A stretch of DNA of 12,710 nt from positions 1 to 12,710 of the forward strand of contig JAJYGO010000325.1 of NCBI GenBank assembly GCA_021785115.1, given 5' to 3'. The DNA comes from Chloroflexota bacterium. GTDB taxonomy: Bacteria; Chloroflexota; Limnocylindria; Limnocylindrales; CSP1-4. Position numbers and translations under genes: made by a program. Positions 4,515 to 12,646 of the stretch are shown here, piece by piece. The stretch's first letter is position 1. Every line of letters begins with the position of its first letter. The notes under the pieces are model-generated. The model worked only from the letters and a program-made list of their open reading frames with translations. It was not told the DNA's origin and did not search any database.

Positions 4515-5849
4515 TCAGCGGTCGCCGAGATACACCCCGCGCTGGCGCAGCGTCGTCTGCAGCTTCGCGACGTCGAGCGTGGGCGCGGTTCCACCCTGCG
4601 CCGCGAGCTGGGCGGCCGCCACGCCCGCCGCCTCGCCGCTGACGAGGCACGGCGCCATGTTCCGCGTCGCGCCGTGCGCGAAGGATGTCGCGGAGATGCA
4701 GCGCCCACCCACCAGGACGTTGTCGACGCCTCTCGGGACCAGGGCGCGATACGGGATGTCGAACGCGCCGTCGTCACCGATCTCGTGGAACGTCGCCTGC
4801 CCGCTCCCGGGATCGTGGATGTCGACAGGGAAGCAGACCTGCCCGACGGCGTCCTCGAACTTGCGACCGGCGTGAACGTCGGCGTCGGCGATCTGGTACA
4901 GCCCCTCGATCGTGCGCGTCTCCCGGACGCCCGCGATCGCCGCGGGGGTGTAGTAGCCGTTCTCGAACCCCGGCACGTGGTCCTTGAGGAACTCGCCGAT
5001 GCGCGCGCACTGGCGGGTCAGCTCGACCGTCGCGCGCGAGAGCGCCAGCGTGTCCGTGCCGTCCACCTCGGTGGCCGCGGAGGTGTTGACGTTGAGCTGG
5101 TCGGGCCAGACCGTGTTGAAGAAGACGTTCCGATCCTCGTTGGGGAACACGTGCTGCTGCCGGACGATGCGGTTCCAGCGGCTGAACGCACCGTTGAAGT
5201 AGACCGGGAACGGTCGCGGATGGTCGGGCCGGGTCGCCATCGCGGGTGGTGAGACGGCGATCTCATCCGCCACCCGCTGCGTGTCCACGCGGTGAAAATG
5301 CAGCAGCATGGACACGGGCTGCATCTTGCCCGTCGCTTCCTTGCCCTTGCGGAACGGCGCACCGGCGAAGGCCGCGACGTCGGCGTCACCGCTTGCGTCG
5401 ACGATCGCCTTCGCACGCATCGCGCGCACGCCGCCCTTCATCGCGACCTGCAGGCCGGACACGCGCCCACCATCCTGGTCGACGCCGACGACGCTCACGC
5501 CGTACAGGACCTCGACGGTGGCCTCGGCGAGCAGTTCGGTCGCCATGATGCGGAAGCGGTCGCCGTCGACCGGCGTGACCGAGTGGGCGAACCCACCGAA
5601 CGGTACGTGTCCGACGGCGCCGCCGATGCGGATCAGGCGATCGATGCACTCCTGCGCGATGCCGAAGACGTGCTGCTTCCCGAGGCGGCTCCTGTAGGCG
5701 TGGATGCACAGGCCGGTGGTCGCGTTACTGCCCACGAACGGCCGCAGCTCGAGGAGCGCCGTCCGCGCCCCGCCGCGCGCCGCCGCGATGGAAGCTGCGA
5801 GGCCCGCCACTCCTCCGCCGACCACCACCACGTCGTATTCCAGGTTCAC
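4515..5849 (-). CDS. FAD-dependent oxidoreductase, divergent copy
   Basis: 444 residues with a GTG start at 5849 and a GGAGAGGA ribosome site at 5861-5854 (minus strand). The N-terminus YDVVVVGGGVAGLAAS is the Rossmann GxGxxG dinucleotide site (Gly11, Gly13, Gly16), with Glu34 as the likely ribose-binding acid. The second FAD motif is DASGDADVAAFAGA (151-164). A GVRETR motif lies at 307-312 and the C-terminal FAD-contact region NVLVGGRCISATSFAHG at about 377-393. This order fits the 'FAD-dependent oxidoreductase' family of soluble flavoenzymes (PF12831-like); their substrates are mostly undefined. It is divergent from the gntR operon, whose second gene is its paralogue. The shared control region suggests joint regulation. 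No truncation is seen. The reaction is unknown. Confidence 0.88.
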   Translation of the reverse strand: MNLEYDVVVVGGGVAGLAASIAAARGGARTALLELRPFVGSNATTGLCIHAYRSRLGKQHVFGIAQECIDRLIRIGGAVGHVPFGGFAHSVTPVDGDRFRIMATELLAEATVEVLYGVSVVGVDQDGGRVSGLQVAMKGGVRAMRAKAIVDASGDADVAAFAGAPFRKGKEATGKMQPVSMLLHFHRVDTQRVADEIAVSPPAMATRPDHPRPFPVYFNGAFSRWNRIVRQQHVFPNEDRNVFFNTVWPDQLNVNTSAATEVDGTDTLALSRATVELTRQCARIGEFLKDHVPGFENGYYTPAAIAGVRETRTIEGLYQIADADVHAGRKFEDAVGQVCFPVDIHDPGSGQATFHEIGDDGAFDIPYRALVPRGVDNVLVGGRCISATSFAHGATRNMAPCLVSGEAAGVAAAQLAAQGGTAPTLDVAKLQTTLRQRGVYLGDR

Positions 5850-5874
5850 GTCGTCCTCTCCGCTCGGGTGCGAC

Positions 5875-5903
5875 TTGACTTCACTGTAGCCGCCCGGTAG
5901 ACG
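5875..5903 (+). promoter_or_regulatory. Candidate promoter of the gntR operon
   Basis: TTGACT (5875-5880, five of six matches to the -35 consensus) is followed after 17 bases by TAGACG (5898-5903), a poor -10. Transcription would begin near 5910, inside the operator repeats, and the SD GAGGAA (5927-5932) sits seven bases before the GTG at 5940. The weak -10 keeps confidence moderate. Confidence 0.35.
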
Positions 5904-5912
5904 CGATGTCTA
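5883..5912 (-). promoter_or_regulatory. Candidate promoter of the divergent FAD oxidoreductase
   Basis: On the minus strand TAGACA (5912-5907, five of six -35 positions) and TACAGT (5888-5883, four of six -10 positions) are 18 bases apart. The -35 box lies inside the left operator octamer, so a bound repressor would block it directly. Confidence 0.45.
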
Positions 5913-5925
5913 CACGATGTATACA
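5897..5925. promoter_or_regulatory. Putative tandem GntR/FCD operators
   Basis: Two octamers, TGTCTACA (5907-5914) and TGTATACA (5918-5925), differ at one base and are spaced 11 bp start to start, so they face the same side of the helix. The second is a perfect palindrome. In addition GTAGAC (5897-5902) and GTCTAC (5908-5913) form a perfect inverted repeat with a 5-bp gap. Palindromes with a GTATAC or GTNNAC core are typical of FadR-subfamily GntR operators. Location next to the regulator's own start supports autoregulation; binding itself is inferred. Confidence 0.55.
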
Positions 5926-5939
5926 CGAGGAACCCGGGC

Positions 5940-6701
5940 GTGACGGACAGGCGAGCGAGGCGAAGGACGACGCCGAGGCGGGCGGGCGGCGTGCCGCGCG
6001 CCGCGAGGGGCTCGACGCTCCGGGCGAGGCGCGGCACGGCGGCGGACGGCCTCACCACCCAGGCATACCAGCAGGTCCGCAACGCCATCCTGCGCGGCGA
6101 CCACCCTCCCGGCGAGGTGCTGCTGGAGACGCATCTCGCGGGCGAGTTGGGGATGAGCCGCACGCCGGTCCGCGAAGCGCTCCAGCTGCTGGCGCGCGAA
6201 GGGTTCCTGGAGATCGTGGCCAACCGGGGGTACTTCGTGCCGCGGCTGTCGATGTCCGACATCCGAGAGTTCTACGAGCTGCGCGAGGTGCTGGAAGGCT
6301 TCGCCACCCGTTGCGCGGCCACGCACGCGGCGGACGCGGACATCGAGGACCTCGAGCAGCTGATGCGCCACTACGAGCGCGCGCCGTCATGGGAGGCCTG
6401 GGCTCGCATCGGTACCGAATTCCACAACCGCATCATCGCGCTCGGCGCCAATCGGCGGCTGAGCAGCCTGCTCGGCTCGCTGAAGGCCCAGATCGGCCTC
6501 ACGCGGGAGACGCAGCTCCGCGAGGTCAGGGGTCGCCGCGACGAATCCGCCGTCGAGCACCGGGCCATCCTCGACGCCATCCGCAAGCGCGATCCCGAGG
6601 AGGCGGAGCGGGAGGCGAGAGCACACGTCCGGCTCTCGTACGAGGCCATCCTGCAGGCCTTCCACCCGGGGCGGCGGCCGGGTGGCCGCCGCGATGGATG
6701 A
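5940..6701 (+). CDS. GntR family transcriptional regulator, FCD (FadR) subfamily
   Basis: 253 residues from a GTG at 5940 with SD GAGGAA. The winged-helix DNA-binding domain covers about residues 37-104: LTTQAYQQVRNAILRGDHPPGE, the recognition helix region MSRTPVREALQLLAREG (72-88), and the wing NRGYFV. The FCD ligand domain follows (about 106-240), with RxxLE at 115-119 and histidines at the usual metal positions: FHNRII (His162), EHRAIL (His207) and HVRLSY (His229). The usual Asp four residues before the first His is Gly158 here. The first 36 residues are an Arg-rich, low-complexity extension, so a later start (for example GTG at 5991) is possible. FCD regulators usually repress catabolic or transport genes and release DNA on binding an organic acid. 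Neighbours imply control of the flanking oxidoreductases and the importer. Confidence 0.9.
   Translation: MTDRRARRRTTPRRAGGVPRAARGSTLRARRGTAADGLTTQAYQQVRNAILRGDHPPGEVLLETHLAGELGMSRTPVREALQLLAREGFLEIVANRGYFVPRLSMSDIREFYELREVLEGFATRCAATHAADADIEDLEQLMRHYERAPSWEAWARIGTEFHNRIIALGANRRLSSLLGSLKAQIGLTRETQLREVRGRRDESAVEHRAILDAIRKRDPEEAEREARAHVRLSYEAILQAFHPGRRPGGRRDG
6671..6692 (+). repeat. Perfect 9-bp hairpin at the 3' end of gntR
   Basis: GCGGCGGCC (6671-6679) and GGCCGCCGC (6684-6692) are exact complements around a GGGT loop. The hairpin is inside the last codons of gntR, ends eight bases before the SD (AAGGAG, 6701-6706) of the next gene and has no T-tract. It could tune the ratio between regulator and downstream genes, or be a by-product of Arg/Gly-rich codons. 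Confidence 0.5.
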
Positions 6702-6710
6702 AGGAGCACG

Positions 6711-8162
6711 ATGAGCGCAAACGGCACCGGAGGGTACGTCATCGAGCCGGCGCGCAAGACTCCTGTGGTGAGCGAGGTGGACGTGCTGGTCTGTGGAGGC
6801 GGCGTGTCGGGGGTCGGGGCGGCGCTGGGTGCCTCGCGCCTGGGGGCGCGGACGATCGTGCTCGAGCGCAACGCCTTCCTCGGCGGAGCGGCGACCGCCG
6901 TCATCATGAACACCTGGAACGTGCCGGTCGATCGGATGACCGGCGTCGCGCGCGAGATCGCGCTCGCGCTGGAGGCACGCGGAGCCGGCGTGACCACCGG
7001 ACCGACGTTCCCGTTCGATTCGGAGGCCTTCAAGGAGCTCGCCCTCGAGCTGCTGCGGGAGCAGGACGTCGAGCTCCTCAACTACACCTGGGTCGCCGAT
7101 CCGATCATGGATGGGCAGCGCATCCGCGGCGTGATCGTCCAGAACAAGTCCGGCCGCCAGGCGATCCTTGCCCGCACCGTCGTGGACACGACCGGCGACG
7201 CCGACGTCGCGGCGGCGGCTGGCGCCGAGTACGTCAAGGGCCGCGAGAACGACGCGAAGATGCGGCCTATGAGCGTGCTGTTCCGGCTCGGCGGTGTGGA
7301 CGTGCGGAAGGCGGTCGAGAGCTGCCTGCGCCACCCGGAGCACTACACCGCCGACCCGAACTTCCATGTCCTCGATCCCGACCAGGGCCTCGTCCGCATG
7401 TCGGGGTTCTTCGACGTCGTGGAGAAGGCGCGCGCGGCGGGGGAGCTCCCGGACGAGATCCACTACATCCGGTTCGAAGGCGTCAGCGTGGACCGCGGGA
7501 TCGTGACGGTCAACAACTCGCGCGTCTACGGCGTGGACGGGACGAACGCGGCGGACCTCACCCGGGCCGACATCGAGGCGCGGCTCCAGAATCGCAAGCT
7601 CTTCGCCGTCATCAAGAAGTACATCCCGGGGTTCGAGAACGCGTTCGTCCTCGACTCGTCCGCGACGGTCGGCGTCCGTGAGACCCGGCGCGTGCGCGGG
7701 CCGCACGTCCTCTCCGAGCAGGATCTGGTGGCGCACCGCACGTACCCGAACAGCGTCGCCCGGATCTGGCGGCACATGGCCGAGGGCACCGACTGGCACA
7801 AGGCCGACGGTGGCGAAGGGGCGCCGGGCGATGCGGTCTACCGGACGGCGACGACGAGCCTGACCTGGTTCGAGATTCCATGGGGCGTCTTCACGCCCAA
7901 CCACGTCGAGGGGATGACCATCGGCGGGCGGACCATCTCTGCCACGCACGAGGCGGAGATGTGGTGCCGCGCGCAGTACTCGTGCCTCGTCACCGGCCAG
8001 GTGGCCGGCACGGCGGCAGCGCTGGCCGCGGCGTGCGGCGTGTCGCCGTCGTCGCTCGACGTGGCGGCGCTGCAGCGGGCGCTCGTGGCAGCGGGGGTGG
8101 ACATCGGGGAAGCTGGCGAGCGGGTGGCAGCGCAGCGCCGGAGCGCCAGCGCGACGCCGTGA
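6711..8162 (+). CDS. FAD-dependent oxidoreductase, operon copy
   Basis: 483 residues; the ATG at 6711 follows AAGGAG (6701-6706) with nine bases between the gntR stop and this start. The GxGxxG site is at DVLVCGGGVSGVGAALG (Gly29, Gly31, Gly34) with Glu52 as the ribose acid. The second motif is TGDADVAAAAGAEY (161-174), GVRETRRVRG lies at 321-330, and the C-terminal MTIGGRTISATHEAEMWCRA (402-421) closes the FAD site. The same motif order and spacing as the divergent enzyme at 4515-5849 make the two paralogues, but the sequences differ through most of the middle, where substrate specificity should lie. Cytosolic flavoenzyme, reaction unknown. Position between regulator and importer suggests it acts on the imported compound. 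Confidence 0.9.
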   Translation: MSANGTGGYVIEPARKTPVVSEVDVLVCGGGVSGVGAALGASRLGARTIVLERNAFLGGAATAVIMNTWNVPVDRMTGVAREIALALEARGAGVTTGPTFPFDSEAFKELALELLREQDVELLNYTWVADPIMDGQRIRGVIVQNKSGRQAILARTVVDTTGDADVAAAAGAEYVKGRENDAKMRPMSVLFRLGGVDVRKAVESCLRHPEHYTADPNFHVLDPDQGLVRMSGFFDVVEKARAAGELPDEIHYIRFEGVSVDRGIVTVNNSRVYGVDGTNAADLTRADIEARLQNRKLFAVIKKYIPGFENAFVLDSSATVGVRETRRVRGPHVLSEQDLVAHRTYPNSVARIWRHMAEGTDWHKADGGEGAPGDAVYRTATTSLTWFEIPWGVFTPNHVEGMTIGGRTISATHEAEMWCRAQYSCLVTGQVAGTAAALAAACGVSPSSLDVAALQRALVAAGVDIGEAGERVAAQRRSASATP

Positions 8163-8187
8163 TCAACGTGGGGCCGAGGGATCTCTC

Positions 8188-9216
8188 ATGGACGCGCGAT
8201 TGAGGAAGCTGTGCCTGATGCTGGCCTGCACGGTCGCCGCGACGAGCACGCGGGCGGAGACGCAGGGCATCGAGAAGCGCGACGTCAAGATCGCGGTGGG
8301 CAGCAAGGTCGGCCTCTTCTTCCTGCCGACGATGCTCGCGGAGTACCTCGGCTATTACAAGGACGAGGGGCTGAACGTCCAGATCGTCGATCTCGGCTCG
8401 GGGGGCAAGGCGCTCGAGGCGCTCGTCGGCAAGAGCGTCGACGTGACCAGCGGCGCGTACGACCACACCGTCCAGCTGAACGCGAAGAACATTCCGCTCG
8501 AGGCGTTCGTGCTCCAGGCGAAGCTCGCGGACTACGCCGTCGGGACCGTCAAGGGGAAGATCCCCGACTACAGATCGCCGAAGGACCTCAAGGGCAAGAA
8601 GATCGGCATCTCGTCACCCGGCGCGGGCAGCGACATGTTCCTGAAGCTGGTCCTGGCCAAGTCCGGCGTGAAGCCCGAGGACGTCAGCGTCATCAGCGTC
8701 GGGCTGGGCTCGGCCGCGGTCGCGGCCGTACAGCGAGGCGAGCTCGACGCCATCGCCAACAACGACCCGGTGCTCACGGTCCTGCAGGAGAGCGGCGACA
8801 TCAGGGTCATCGCCGACGCGCGCACGCCGGAAGGCTCCAAGGAGTACTACGGGAGCGAGACGTACCCCGCCGGCTGCTTCTTCGCATACTCCGACTTCAT
8901 CAAGGACAACCCCAACACGGTCCAGGGGCTGACCAACGCCATGGTCCGGACGCTTCGATGGCTGCACCAGGCCACGCCCGACCAGGTCATGAAGGTGCTC
9001 CCGAAGGAGTTCGCCGGCGGACACCCTGCGATCCTGCGGAAGATGCTGCTGAAGCTGCTGCCGACGTACTCGCCGGATGGCGTGTTCCCCGCCGACGGCG
9101 GCGAGGTCGCCTATCGCGCGCTCGCCCAGTTCTACCCGAGCGTCCGCGCCGCGAAGATCGACGTGAGCAGGACGTTCACCAACGCGTTCGTCCAGAGGGC
9201 GCTCGCCAACAAGTGA
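8188..9216 (+). CDS. ABC transporter substrate-binding protein, NMT1/THI5-SsuA-like
   Basis: 342 residues; ATG at 8188 with SD GAGGGA (8176-8181), 25 bases after the oxidoreductase stop. Signal peptide MDARLRKLCLMLACTVAATS, likely cleaved at TRA|E (23/24), so the protein is periplasmic. The mature protein starts with a strand VKIAVGSKVGLFFLP and the helix AEYLGYYKDEGL that open NitT/TauT-class binding proteins. GSGGKALEALVGKSVDVTSGAYDH lines domain I, and DLKGKKIGISSPGAGSDMFLKLVL begins domain II. This family binds aliphatic sulfonates, taurine, nitrate, pyrimidine precursors or aromatic acids; the ligand cannot be told from sequence. It forms one importer with the two genes that follow. Confidence 0.9.
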   Translation: MDARLRKLCLMLACTVAATSTRAETQGIEKRDVKIAVGSKVGLFFLPTMLAEYLGYYKDEGLNVQIVDLGSGGKALEALVGKSVDVTSGAYDHTVQLNAKNIPLEAFVLQAKLADYAVGTVKGKIPDYRSPKDLKGKKIGISSPGAGSDMFLKLVLAKSGVKPEDVSVISVGLGSAAVAAVQRGELDAIANNDPVLTVLQESGDIRVIADARTPEGSKEYYGSETYPAGCFFAYSDFIKDNPNTVQGLTNAMVRTLRWLHQATPDQVMKVLPKEFAGGHPAILRKMLLKLLPTYSPDGVFPADGGEVAYRALAQFYPSVRAAKIDVSRTFTNAFVQRALANK

Positions 9217-9246
9217 TTCCCAGACCCCGTTCGCGCCCCACGACAG

Positions 9247-9258
9247 GCTCGCGCGAGC
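9247..9258. repeat. 12-bp palindrome between binding-protein and ATPase genes
   Basis: GCTCGCGCGAGC is a perfect palindrome in the 73-base gap after the substrate-binding protein gene. Hairpins here often protect binding-protein mRNA and keep it in excess over the ATPase and permease; that role is inferred only. Confidence 0.4.
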
Positions 9259-9289
9259 GGGCGCGCCGGCCGCAAGCCGTGGAGGTGAA

Positions 9290-10147
9290 ATGGCGCTCAT
9301 GGAGTTGCACACGGCCCTGCCGCCCCGCCGCGCGGATTCGCCCGTCCCCGCCGTGGCGTTTCGCGGGATCACCTGCCGCTTCCCAGGCGCCGGAGCGACG
9401 CCCGCGACGTACACCGCGGTCGAGAACACCACTCTCGATGTCGCGGAGGGTGAGTTCGTCTCGGTCGTAGGGCCGACCGGCTGCGGGAAATCGACCCTGC
9501 TCAACGCGGCGGCCGGCCTGCTCGAGCCGGCCGCTGGCACCGTGGAGATCTTCGGCAAGCCGCTGGTGGGCGTGAACACCGCCGCCGGATACCTGTTCCA
9601 GGCGGAGTCGCTCATGCCGTGGCGCTCCGCGCTCCGGAACGTCACCGCCGGGCTCGAGTACCGCGGCGTGCCGAAGGCAAGGGCCGTCGAGCAGGCCACG
9701 CTCTGGCTCGAGCGCGTCGGCCTCACCGGGTTCGAGCATCGCTACCCCCACCAGCTCTCGGGTGGCATGCGGAAGCGCGTCGCGCTGGCGCAGACGCTCA
9801 TCCTGGACCCGCACATCCTGCTCATGGACGAGCCGTTCAGCGCGCTCGACGCGCAGACGCGCGTGCTGATGGAGAACGAGCTGCTCGAGCTGTGGGGCGC
9901 CAACCGCAAGTCGGTGCTGTTCATCACCCACGATCTCGAGGAGGCCATCTCGATGTCCGATCGCGTCATCGTCCTGTCGGCCGGCCCCGGGAGCCACCCC
10001 ATCGGCGAGTTCGTCGTCGACCTCGCTCGCCCGCGCGACGTCTCGGAGATCCGTCACACCAAGCGCTTCGTCGAACTCCATCGCGACATCTGGACCGTCT
10101 TGAAGGAAGAGGTGCTGAAGGCCTATGCCCACACTCGACAGAGGTGA
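9290..10147 (+). CDS. ABC transporter ATP-binding protein, NitT/TauT family
   Basis: 285 residues; ATG at 9290 after GGAGGTG (9281-9287), with a second ATG nine bases on. All nucleotide-binding motifs are intact: Walker A GPTGCGKST (61-69), Q-loop Gln104 in YLFQAESLMPW, signature LSGGM (156-160), Walker B ILLMDEP (176-182), D-loop SALD (184-187) and switch His214 in FITHDLEEA. The FQxxxLMPW form of the Q-loop and the short length without a regulatory domain are typical of SsuB/TauB/NrtD-type proteins. The dimer should power import on the cytoplasmic face. Its last 23 bases overlap the permease gene, implying translational coupling. Confidence 0.93.
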   Translation: MALMELHTALPPRRADSPVPAVAFRGITCRFPGAGATPATYTAVENTTLDVAEGEFVSVVGPTGCGKSTLLNAAAGLLEPAAGTVEIFGKPLVGVNTAAGYLFQAESLMPWRSALRNVTAGLEYRGVPKARAVEQATLWLERVGLTGFEHRYPHQLSGGMRKRVALAQTLILDPHILLMDEPFSALDAQTRVLMENELLELWGANRKSVLFITHDLEEAISMSDRVIVLSAGPGSHPIGEFVVDLARPRDVSEIRHTKRFVELHRDIWTVLKEEVLKAYAHTRQR

Positions 10148-10949
10148 CGGAAGGCGCCGCCTGCGCGCTCGCGGTGCCAGGCTCCGCCTGTATCAGCTGG
10201 TCGTATTCGTGGCGCTCGTCCTGCTCTGGTACGCGCTGACAGAGGCGGCGGTCCTGCCCAAGTTCTTCTTCGGCGAGCCGGTCGCCGTCGCCAGCCGGCT
10301 CCGGGACTGGCTCGGCGCGGGCGAGATCTATCACCACGTCGGGGTCACGCTCGTCGAGACGCTCCTCGCGTTCGCGCTCGGCTCGACGCTCGCCCTCGTC
10401 ATCGGCCTGTGGCTCGCGTTGAACCCGACCGCATCCGCGCTGGCGGACCCGTACATCAAGGGACTGAACTCGATGCCACGCGTGATCCTGGCGCCGATCT
10501 TCGCCGTCTGGTTTGGGTTGGGGATCTGGTCGAAGGTGGCGCTCGGGATCACCCTGGTCTTCTTCGTCGTCTTCTTCAACGTGTATCAGGGCATCCGCGA
10601 CGTCAGCCCGGTGGTGCTGGCGAACTCGCGCATGCTCGGCGCCAACAAGCGGCAGCTCCTCCGCACGGTCTACCTGCCGTCGGCGACGACCTGGGTCTTC
10701 TCGAGCCTGCACACCTCTGTCGGGATGGCCTTCGTCGGCGCCGTCGTCGGCGAATACCTCGGCTCCTCGGCGGGGGTGGGATACCTCATCCTCCAGGCTG
10801 AGGGCGTCTTCGACATCAACACCGTCTTCGCGGGCATCATCGTCTTGACGGTGTGTGCCCTCGTGCTCGATGCCGTCGTCGGCGCGGTGGAGGAGCGCCT
10901 CCTCTTCTGGCGCCCGTCACAGCCGACGGGCGAGGCTCACGCGACGTGA
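10125..10949 (+). CDS. ABC transporter permease, SsuC/TauC-like
   Basis: 274 residues from an ATG at 10125 inside the end of the ATPase gene. The Arg-rich N-terminus (residues 8-21) is cytoplasmic. Hydrophobic helices are seen at about 22-40, 75-98, 118-132, 137-154, 195-212 and 233-253, the six-helix plan of binding-protein-dependent permeases. The cytoplasmic coupling loop is ANSRMLGANKRQLLRTVYLP (166-185), matching the EAA-loop consensus at the Gly and the final LP, with ANS in place of EAA as is common in this subfamily. GYLILQAEGVFDINTVFAGII near the C-terminus is also characteristic. It should form the homodimeric channel of the importer. The TGA overlaps a possible GTG start of the next open frame. 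Confidence 0.92.
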   Translation: MPTLDRGDGRRRLRARGARLRLYQLVVFVALVLLWYALTEAAVLPKFFFGEPVAVASRLRDWLGAGEIYHHVGVTLVETLLAFALGSTLALVIGLWLALNPTASALADPYIKGLNSMPRVILAPIFAVWFGLGIWSKVALGITLVFFVVFFNVYQGIRDVSPVVLANSRMLGANKRQLLRTVYLPSATTWVFSSLHTSVGMAFVGAVVGEYLGSSAGVGYLILQAEGVFDINTVFAGIIVLTVCALVLDAVVGAVEERLLFWRPSQPTGEAHAT

Positions 10950-11101: not shown

Positions 11102-11272
11102 TTCACGGGAGCTGGGATGATCCCAGCGACATCGTTGTCGCCGCCGCGGCGAGAGTCAGGCAGAGGTTTGCCGCAGTGGAATATCCAGCCAATCGAGGAA
11201 TGCCGGGTCGTACCGCTCCTCGACAATTTTGGTGCCGGACGAAATAAGCTCCGAGAACCGGGAGCTTAGGAG
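11081..11272. other. Foreign-looking insert between hydrolase break and tRNA fragment
   Basis: This 192-base stretch has more A+T than its neighbours. It opens at the hydrolase break with CTTCGGCGAAG (11081-11091), an 11-bp inverted repeat. GCTGGGA/TCCCAGC follows at 11111-11127. On the minus strand about 37 codons are open before a TGA at 11158-11156, including a protein-like ERYDPAFLDWLDIPLRQ segment, which may be the tail of a gene that has lost its start. I do not recognise it. A plus-strand frame ending at 11247 (KKGLIHGSWDDPSDIV) overlaps it, and at most one is real. Confidence 0.3.
11245..11268 (-). terminator. Hairpin with short T-run, downstream of the tRNA-like 3' end
   Basis: Read leftwards, TAAGCTCC and GGAGCTTA form a perfect 8-bp stem with an 8-base loop, followed by TTTC. 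It starts four bases past the discriminator of the tRNA-like fragment, where a tRNA or tmRNA terminator would sit. Confidence 0.45.
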
Positions 11273-11297
11273 TGGAGGTGCCGGGAATCGAACGCGG
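11273..11297 (-). other. tRNA/tmRNA 3'-end fragment, putative integration (att) scar
   Basis: On the minus strand the bases read as the 3' part of a tRNA domain: a T-arm with the standard loop TTCGATT (11292-11286), stem strands CCGCG and CCCGG (four pairs and one C-C mismatch), the acceptor 3' strand CACCTCC (11280-11274) and discriminator A (11273). No CCA is encoded. I looked for the matching 5' acceptor strand (GGAGGTG or similar) within tRNA and tmRNA distance upstream and found none, nor D- and anticodon arms. A lone 3' end of this kind is what site-specific integrases leave when elements enter a tRNA or tmRNA gene. Confidence 0.55.
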
Positions 11298-11565
11298 TTC
11301 TATGTGTGGAGACGATCTCGTGGAAGCGCGGGATCTCGCCCGAGATAGGCGCGGTTGCGGATGCTAGCATGCATTCGGCGCGACGCATCCACACGGCTCC
11401 GATACAGGCTCCTGCTGGAAGACGTGTAGCCCCGGAGACCCGAGAAGACCGGCCGTCCCGAGCCTGGCCACCAGCGGCGACCTGGGCCTTCACGCCCGAC
11501 GGGCCCGGTGAGCGTTGCGGCTCCCGGGGTCCGCGGGCGCGGCCACGAGGGACCTCCAGGAGCGG
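11298..11565. other. Gene-free stretch with small palindromes
   Basis: Between the tRNA-like fragment and the 3' end of the selenoprotein gene. ATCTCG/CGAGAT (11333-11346) and the perfect palindrome ATGCTAGCAT (11361-11370) are visible. Open frames exist on both strands, but none has a start with SD or a composition I trust. No recombinase gene is seen. Confidence 0.35.
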
Positions 11566-12369
11566 TCAGGCGGGCGTGGACGGGGCCGGCGCGAAGGTCT
11601 CGTCGAGCACGACGGGCGGGAGCGGCGCCGGGCGGGTGAGGAGCGCGAGCGTCGCCTCGAGCACCCGCCGCTGCTGCGTCCCGTCGCCGGGGGCGCCGAT
11701 GGGCGCGCCGCGCGGCAGGCGCGTGAACGTGACGCGTGGCGGGTTGACGAGCCGGGCCACCGCGTCGCGCCAGGTCGTCATCGTGGTGGCGATCCCCTCG
11801 ACCTGGAGCGCGCGGGCGAGCAGGCTCACGGCCTGCGTGCAGAGCGGTCAGACGGGGACGAGCAGGGCGGCGTCGGCCTCCTGCCGGCGGGCCAGGGCGA
11901 GGAGCGGCGGTGCGACCTCGTCGACGACCCGGCGCACGTCGGGGAGGTAGCCGCTGAAGCTGAAGGCGGTCGGCGCCAGCTCGCCGACGGCGCCCTCGCG
12001 GACGAGCGCCTCCAGGTGGCGAAGCGGCAGGACCGCCTGCACGTCCCGGTCGACGAAGGCGTGGTCGTAATGGTCGTGCGCGAAGGCGAGCCGCTCGAGC
12101 GGGAGCGACACCGGGAAGGTGCGGTGCGACGGGTCCCCGAGCGGGTTGGGGGCGTCGAAGGGCGGCTGCTCGCCGCGGACGTAGGCCCCCGAGGAGGTGA
12201 CGACCAGGAGGCGCGAGCGGGCCAGGGCGACGGGCGCGCCGGGGACGGGCGCCTCGTTCCGGGCGTACTGGTACTGCTTCCAGTCGAACTCACCCGTGGC
12301 CCGCTGCCGCGCGAGCCAGCCCGCCTCGAACTGCTCACCCCAGGCCGTCCGCCGCTCGAGGATCTCCAT
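11566..12369 (-). CDS. GrdB/PrdB-like selenoprotein (in-frame UGA read as selenocysteine)
   Basis: Read as one gene, 267 residues: 173 codons from the ATG at 12369, UGA at 11850-11848, then 93 more codons. The N-terminal part shows family hallmarks of the glycine/sarcosine/betaine/D-proline reductase selenoprotein B group: LLVVTSSGAYVRGEQPPFD (54-72), LAFAHDHYDHAFVDRD (94-109), a GAVGELAPTAFSFSGYLPD block (126-144) and DAALLVPV before the redox centre. The centre is then Sec174-Pro-Leu-Cys177, in place of the Cys-Pro-Leu-Cys found in non-seleno homologues. After the UGA the family sequence resumes without a shift (TQAVSLLARALQVEGIATT, then RLPRGAPIGAPGDGTQQRRVLEATLALL). GrdB and PrdB use Sec to attack amino-acid C-N bonds; stand-alone homologues like this have no assigned substrate, and no PrdA/GrdE partner is in the window. 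The ribosome site is weak. Confidence 0.82.
11820..11836 (-). promoter_or_regulatory. Candidate bacterial SECIS hairpin
   Basis: In the mRNA, 11 bases after the UGA, GCAGGC-CGUGA-GCCUGC forms a perfect 6-bp stem with a 5-base loop. The loop begins 17 bases after the UGA and has G as its second base. Bacterial SECIS elements recognised by SelB lie inside the coding region just after the UGA, with the apical loop about 16-37 bases away and a G among the first loop bases, so position and shape both fit. Confidence 0.7.
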
Positions 12370-12449: not shown

Positions 12450-12601
12450 TGACCTGCCTGGGTTCTTCGGACCACGGGAACCTAGAGAACGGCCTCTCCC
12501 AGGTGGTGTGGTGCTGACTGCTCGTGAAGCGTCTTGAACTCCAGGGGCGTGAGGTAGCCCAGGCTCGAGTGCGGGCGGACCTCGTTGTAGTGCTGCCTGC
12601 T
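12450..12601 (-). mobile_element. IS3-family remnant (transposase 3' end plus terminal sequence)
   Basis: The minus strand from 12601 to the TAG at 12484-12482 encodes RQHYNEVRPHSSLGYLTPLEF followed by a short tail. This is the C-terminal end of the rve integrase domain of IS3-family OrfB transposases (consensus YNxxRPHSSLGYxTPxEF). Beyond the stop, the plus strand begins TGACCTGCCTGGGTTCTT at 12450, a TG-start terminal sequence of IS3 type, so 12450 is a likely element boundary. The catalytic DDE residues and the rest of the transposase are missing, because homology stops near 12601 at the adjoining repeats. The copy is dead. Confidence 0.75.
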
Positions 12602-12646
12602 CGGCGACAATTACACCTCCCCACCGGCGACAACTACACCTCCCCA
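12602..12646. repeat. Tandem 22-bp repeats, likely IS21-like element end
   Basis: Two copies of a 22-base unit (12602-12623 and 12625-12646) lie 23 bases apart and differ at a single base (T versus C at the tenth position, in GACAATTAC versus GACAACTAC). They start exactly where IS3 transposase homology stops. IS21-family ends carry such tandem transposase-binding repeats. No istA or istB is visible before the window ends. Confidence 0.55.

Follow-up and report, generated by a model that had tools for sequence, protein, structure and literature searches.

An orphan PrdB-like gene of Chloroflexota with an in-frame UGA that is very probably decoded as selenocysteine

The window analysed here is a stretch of 12,710 nucleotides from a Chloroflexota bacterium (contig JAJYGO010000325.1), and towards its end, on the reverse strand, lies a PrdB-like gene with an in-frame UGA, the features of which are collected in Table 1. 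Translation of the frame 12369-11566 (−) gives 173 residues, a UGA as codon 174 (11850-11848), a further 93 codons and a second UGA (11568-11566). The context of the internal UGA is LLVPV-U-PLC-TQ. A preliminary description of this DNA had claimed that a 173-codon frame ends at this UGA and continues for 93 codons, and that the UGA falls within a Sec-Pro-Leu-Cys motif with Cys177 present, and both claims were confirmed by translation. The 173-aa ORF reported by gene callers (database protein P0002) is the first part of this gene. Among nine window genes checked, the PrdB-like gene is alone in having an internal in-frame TGA.

Just upstream of the gene, at 12482-12644 (−), lies what remains of the C-terminal part of a transposase (rve_3, 32 bits, 12482-12598), preceded by two stretches of GGAGGTGTARTTGTCGCCG that are near-identical as judged by eye, and mobile DNA may have carried the gene along. 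At about 11270-11300 (−) the sequence resembles by eye the 3′ end of a tRNA with no 5′ half, at which ARAGORN reports no tRNA; it is possibly an integration scar. The region 4515-10949 has the look of a cluster for uptake and catabolism and holds two FAD_oxidored enzymes at 4515-5849 (−) and 6711-8162 (+), a GntR/FCD regulator at 5940-6701 (+) and an NMT1-type ABC transporter trio of binding protein, ATPase and permease at 8188-10949 (+). Searches of the window returned nothing from Rfam at gathering scores, nor from ARAGORN. In two database searches with neighbouring genes, most of the 120 best matches listed for each were unnamed proteins, and those with a name were a mixture in which Proteobacteria predominated.

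Table 1. Positions of the PrdB-like gene and of its predicted functional elements in the window.
Feature	Position	Strand	Remarks
PrdB-like gene, predicted selenoprotein	11566..12369	−	267 aa with Sec174; stop codon counted in coordinates
In-frame UGA, predicted Sec174 of Sec-Pro-Leu-Cys motif	11848..11850	−	UGA in 49/49 loci, Cys in 18/18 stop-free relatives
Cys177 codon, predicted resolving partner of Sec174	11839..11841	−	Cys in 21/21 rows of alignment A4 reaching the column
AHDHYDH segment, conserved His/Asp stretch	12061..12081	−	residues 97-103; alignments A1 and A4
SECIS-type hairpin CAGGC-CGUGA-GCCUG	11821..11835	−	spans 16-30 as numbered from the U of UGA, with GU at 22-23

The best match of the joined product among NCBIfam models is TIGR04483 (PrdB), with 88 bits and an E-value of 6.1e-25 over residues 49-245, corresponding to model positions 27-219. 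The equivalog cut-off, at 300 bits, lies far above this score, and PF07355 gives the window protein 17.6 bits against a gathering cut-off of 22; PF07355 is precomputed on many of the relatives in the database. The gene had been called GrdB/PrdB-like; the resemblance to PrdB stands, with scores below the cut-offs of PF07355 and of the PrdB equivalog. The AHDHYDH segment is invariant in the six rows of alignment A1, and H98 is found in 29 of 32 rows of alignment A4. An AlphaFold2 model of the protein (pLDDT 96.3, pTM 0.93) has a strand at 167-171 followed by a helix at 175-190, which would place Sec174 at the start of the helix and Cys177 within its first turn. Searching the PDB by sequence gave two matches (E-values 0.0083 and 0.81), which were taken as chance, and comparison of folds gave no match outstanding enough for naming a function, so that none of the relatives of solved structure, by fold or by sequence, points to a substrate.

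D-proline and glycine reductases require a pyruvoyl subunit, PrdA or GrdE respectively, the processing of which was reportedly the subject of a study from 2001. The GrdE-type subunit (PF09338) was absent from 38 of 39 genomes of relatives with the UGA gene; the exception, G276, has two PF09338 genes and also a GrdB with UGA, beside GrdE. This genome documents that the PF09338 search works, and none of 14 control genomes matched. PrdA (TIGR04480) exceeded its cut-off in none of the 39 genomes, a result that has no positive control since none of the 14 control genomes matched either, and its single weak match, of 22 bits, was again in the GrdE-bearing G276. The 39 genomes are of unknown completeness, for which single absences mean little, and 38 of them together mean more. 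No neighbouring family was common to more than two of 17 loci besides the gene itself and antisense frames, as found with a crude ORF caller. Ten neighbours scanned at the six closest loci carried PSD/PSCyt domains, ATP-grasp, GFO/IDH/MocA, xylose isomerase-like, Usp, DNA alkylation repair, APH and lactate/malate dehydrogenase, and two were without match. The earlier view of the protein as stand-alone is supported by the absence of the GrdE-type subunit in nearly all of these 39 genomes.

These data bear directly on whether the gene product is a genuine PrdB, acting as Sec subunit of D-proline reductase together with a PrdA pyruvoyl subunit. TIGR04483 is the best model, and relatives are called PrdB by several database sources. 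Against this stand the score of 88 bits, the near absence of PF09338 and of TIGR04480 in relatives and the lack of a neighbour family common to more than two of the 17 loci, and a true D-proline reductase, which we regard as very unlikely, was rejected on the score and on the missing PrdA/GrdE in relatives. As the partner subunits are missing from nearly all of the relatives' genomes searched and the score is 88 rather than 300 bits, D-proline reductase is best taken as describing a resemblance and not a function. Since 38 of 39 carriers lack the subunit that the known reductases need, the PrdB-like protein most likely acts without a pyruvoyl partner and on another substrate.

About 200 residues align with clostridial D-proline reductase PrdB (TIGR04483), from which the window gene differs in falling far under the equivalog cut-off, in the lack of PrdA over cut-off in the 39 relatives and in having no conserved neighbours. 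The selenoprotein B of glycine, sarcosine and betaine reductases (GrdB/GrdF/GrdH; PF07355, TIGR01917/01918, NF040794/5) gives a weak C-terminal match at residues about 92-230, but all of these models remain under their cut-offs, the match begins only at about position 267 of the models, and the GrdE-type subunit of these enzymes is the one lacking in the relatives. A GrdB-like selenoprotein of a monofluoroacetate operon in Synergistota (PMC10838667) is by description similar in being GrdB-like, in having Sec with a SECIS and in not being a standard glycine reductase; it is part of a multi-gene operon, unlike the window-type gene, which is without conserved neighbours.

A selenoprotein family that carries a UxxC motif has been published under the name 'Proline reductase (PrdB)'. 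It is represented by 42 Sargasso Sea sequences in the relevant passage of PMC1088965 and, for the GOS data, by 235 sequences with Sec and 110 with Cys in that of PMC2398784. The window gene fits this family, described from ocean DNA as early as 2005, and shares with it, by description rather than by alignment, the relationship to PrdB, the UxxC motif and the occurrence of Sec beside Cys forms in metagenomes. 'Proline reductase' is also given as a selenoprotein of Anaeromyxobacter and of Geobacter in passages from 2006 (PMC1794560) and for 110 organisms in one from 2016 (PMC5029168), and D-proline reductase (TIGR04483, UxxC) appears in the lists of two reviews from 2022 (PMC9312934) and 2026 (PMC13188914). 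In its passage on PrdB, PMC1088965 gives the function as D-proline ring cleavage, from which the window-type gene differs in that the partner subunits were not found in 38 of the 39 relatives carrying it. The passages on PrdB in these publications hold no mention of carriers lacking partner subunits, and the GOS paper PMC2398784 does not use the word PrdA in its main text. Titles and abstract openings in the literature, including few from subscription journals, reported no function for orphan PrdB-like selenoproteins. The gene had been presented as a hidden selenoprotein, which holds for the gene calls but not for the literature, where, in the passages cited, PrdB with UxxC was already described (PMC1088965, PMC2398784).

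The UGA column was followed across relatives at the level of both protein and DNA. A protein database search with the joined product, in which scoring was limited to the 7,999 candidates with the most words in common, found 96 proteins including the window's own, and 94 of these, the window's own counted, terminate at the residue directly preceding the UGA column. The two exceptions, both known as protein only, have Trp (P0003) and Ser (P0004) in the column, and the Trp of P0003 is perhaps a translated TGA. P0004 is a full-length relative with Ser for Sec and Met for Pro (ASMLC) in which the second Cys is retained, and is perhaps a Sec-loss variant. Six loci emerged from a genome scan, in records of Myxococcota, Anaerolineae, Chloroflexi, Neomarinimicrobiota, Anaerolineales and Acidimicrobiales. 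They are 27-61% identical to the window protein, and each has TGA at the same place; the frame of one of them (L006) reads VPL-stop-PVC at the column. Phylum-wide searches found a match in 99 of 400 Chloroflexota genomes and 29 of 193 Myxococcota genomes. Most of the matches listed from these two phyla contain one TGA and some contain none or two, and an extra TAA or TAG occurs in three of those listed (G246, G549 and G420).

The best-scoring loci from the searches were extracted and read as DNA, and TGA was found at the column in all 49 distinct relative loci. Cys was found in all 18 stop-free relatives fetched (of 24 stop-free rows), and the column is accordingly UGA (49) or Cys (18) in all 67 relatives read as DNA. 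In alignment A4, where Sec is written as Cys, 20 of the 21 rows reaching the column have Cys and the remaining one, P0004, has Ser. The UGA/Cys exchange at this one column spans records of Myxococcota, Chloroflexi/Anaerolineae, Neomarinimicrobiota and Acidimicrobiales in addition to the two phylum-wide searches, and judged from these sequences the column is a classic Sec/Cys exchange. That members of the family have Cys or Sec at this site, as previously claimed, was borne out in the 67 relatives read as DNA, with the Trp of P0003 and the Ser of P0004 as exceptions among the protein-only entries.

The predicted SECIS-type hairpin starts 12 nt past the UGA and has GU in its loop. It was evaluated in an alignment of 42 of 50 distinct sequences, from which eight Myxococcota loci (L060-L067) were left out as their inverted repeat is in another register. 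The five-pair stem (16-20/26-30, counted from the U of UGA) has standard pairs in 99.5% of cells in the 42 sequences, and two of its pairs show double-sided changes, from U-A to G-C or A-U and from G-C to A-U. Of 500 shuffles, the real value was reached by none for the covariation score, by 3 for the number of double-change pairs and by 10 for the number of pair types, a control that is inflated by the relatedness of the sequences. Pairing was lost when the partner was slid by 1 to 3 columns, a control that keeps relatedness yet favours a structure derived from the same sequences. Stem and GU at 22-23 are kept together in 41 of the 42 aligned sequences, the window among them, the exception being L059, and the alignment thereby has a hairpin with G/GU in the apical loop after the UGA. 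Across the window and ten family-gene regions of 17.6-19.9 kb, 11 stretches with 5,858 TGAs in all, such a stem with GU follows 14 TGAs, of which 10 are those of family genes and 4 are others; the family gene of G354 is without the pattern. The stem encodes Ala-Val-Ser in the window and Ser-Val-Gly in most relatives, and the amino acids therefore vary together with the base pair. Folding of the window sequence on its own showed no excess stability (z +1.30 and +0.22), and the hairpin was present in one centroid and in neither minimum-energy structure. This folding null is the weakest point of the SECIS evidence.

The subfamily of the L060-L067 loci has RLCHRTVV after the UGA, and several of its members have a longer inverted repeat, GCACGGTGGTCACCGTGC, in the other register, which is perhaps a variant SECIS.

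Selection after the UGA was assessed by comparing the window with six relatives. Identity after the UGA was at least as high as before it in all six comparisons, being 42% before and 64% after for L003 and 61% on both sides for L001. Values of pN ranged from 0.25 to 0.42 before the UGA and from 0.24 to 0.35 after it, and were lower after the UGA in five of the six, L001 being slightly higher (0.28 after and 0.25 before). In the comparison with L001, pN after the UGA was 0.28 with a pS of 0.62, and third-position GC was 0.97 before and 0.99 after the UGA. There is no sign of decay after the UGA, and relaxed substitution downstream of it, named in the preliminary description as the mark of a pseudogene, was not observed in these comparisons. 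The substitution pattern indicates that the sequence after the UGA is under purifying selection. A pseudogene or sequencing error, in which the UGA would be a true stop and the remainder decays, agrees with the 173-aa ORF given by gene callers and with the transposase remnant just upstream, but is highly improbable and was rejected on the UGA conserved in 49 of 49 distinct relatives read, the conserved hairpin and the unrelaxed downstream sequence.

A genome-wide sense reading of UGA, as Trp or Gly, for which the Trp of P0003 is the one database entry in favour, is the least probable alternative of all and was rejected. A TGA=Trp code does not explain the internal TGA, since of the eight other window genes checked seven have TGA as their stop and would overrun it by 26 to 923 codons, and internal TGAs are absent from all eight. 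The column, moreover, holds Cys in all 18 stop-free relatives fetched.

From the conserved UGA column, the hairpin and the unrelaxed sequence downstream, we conclude with high confidence that the intact gene would encode a selenoprotein of 267 residues in which UGA 11850-11848 is decoded as Sec174. A gene split by annotation is thereby supported as a real selenoprotein gene, and the same division affects the 94 of 96 database proteins found that end at the UGA. In the proposed mechanism, SelB bound to the hairpin just past the UGA would deliver Sec-tRNA-Sec, and the UGA would be read as Sec174, as its conservation suggests. Sec174 would then attack the substrate, Cys177 would resolve the selenenyl-sulphide, and a cellular thiol reductant would recycle the Sec174/Cys177 pair. 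Selenol/thiol oxidoreductase chemistry is on balance favoured by the UxxC motif and the placement of Sec174, and an oxidoreductase of one subunit using Sec174 and Cys177 is the best mechanism. Working without a PrdA/GrdE pyruvoyl partner, the protein would probably have a substrate different from those of D-proline and glycine reductases.

The orphan PrdB-like selenoproteins, present in many Chloroflexota and Myxococcota genomes, rather probably form a separate enzyme class with Sec-dependent reductive chemistry that does without a pyruvoyl subunit. If this is true, the label 'D-proline reductase' is wrong for abundant environmental sequences of the orphan type, and these would represent a new selenoenzyme activity. 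That most genomes of relatives with the UGA gene are without the needed partner subunit suggests that the name PrdB misleads. For the discovery of such an activity, a family that is common and has no reaction assigned to it offers a practical target.

The machinery for Sec was searched for in relatives' genomes. Over their respective cut-offs, selB was found in 4 of 6 relatives' genomes and 2 of 14 control genomes, the tRNA-Sec model in 5 of 6 and 5 of 14, and selA and selD in 6 of 8 relatives' genomes each, five of the six selD having a TGA of their own. In a larger set, selA exceeded its cut-off in 33 of 34 UGA carriers, picked mainly from the best-scoring ones, and in 15 of the 17 carriers of a Cys form, as well as in 15 of 20 Chloroflexota genomes that lack the gene and in 1 of 14 controls. 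Since selA is so frequent in genomes without the gene and the tRNA-Sec model passes in 5 of 14 controls, presence of the machinery discriminates weakly, and for the former reason it documents a capacity of the relatives rather than a specific linkage to the gene. In a passage of PMC1794560 from 2006, three selenoproteins are listed for Chloroflexota, and, given the selA genes of the 15 Chloroflexota genomes lacking the gene, the use of Sec in this phylum may be far commoner than that list conveys.
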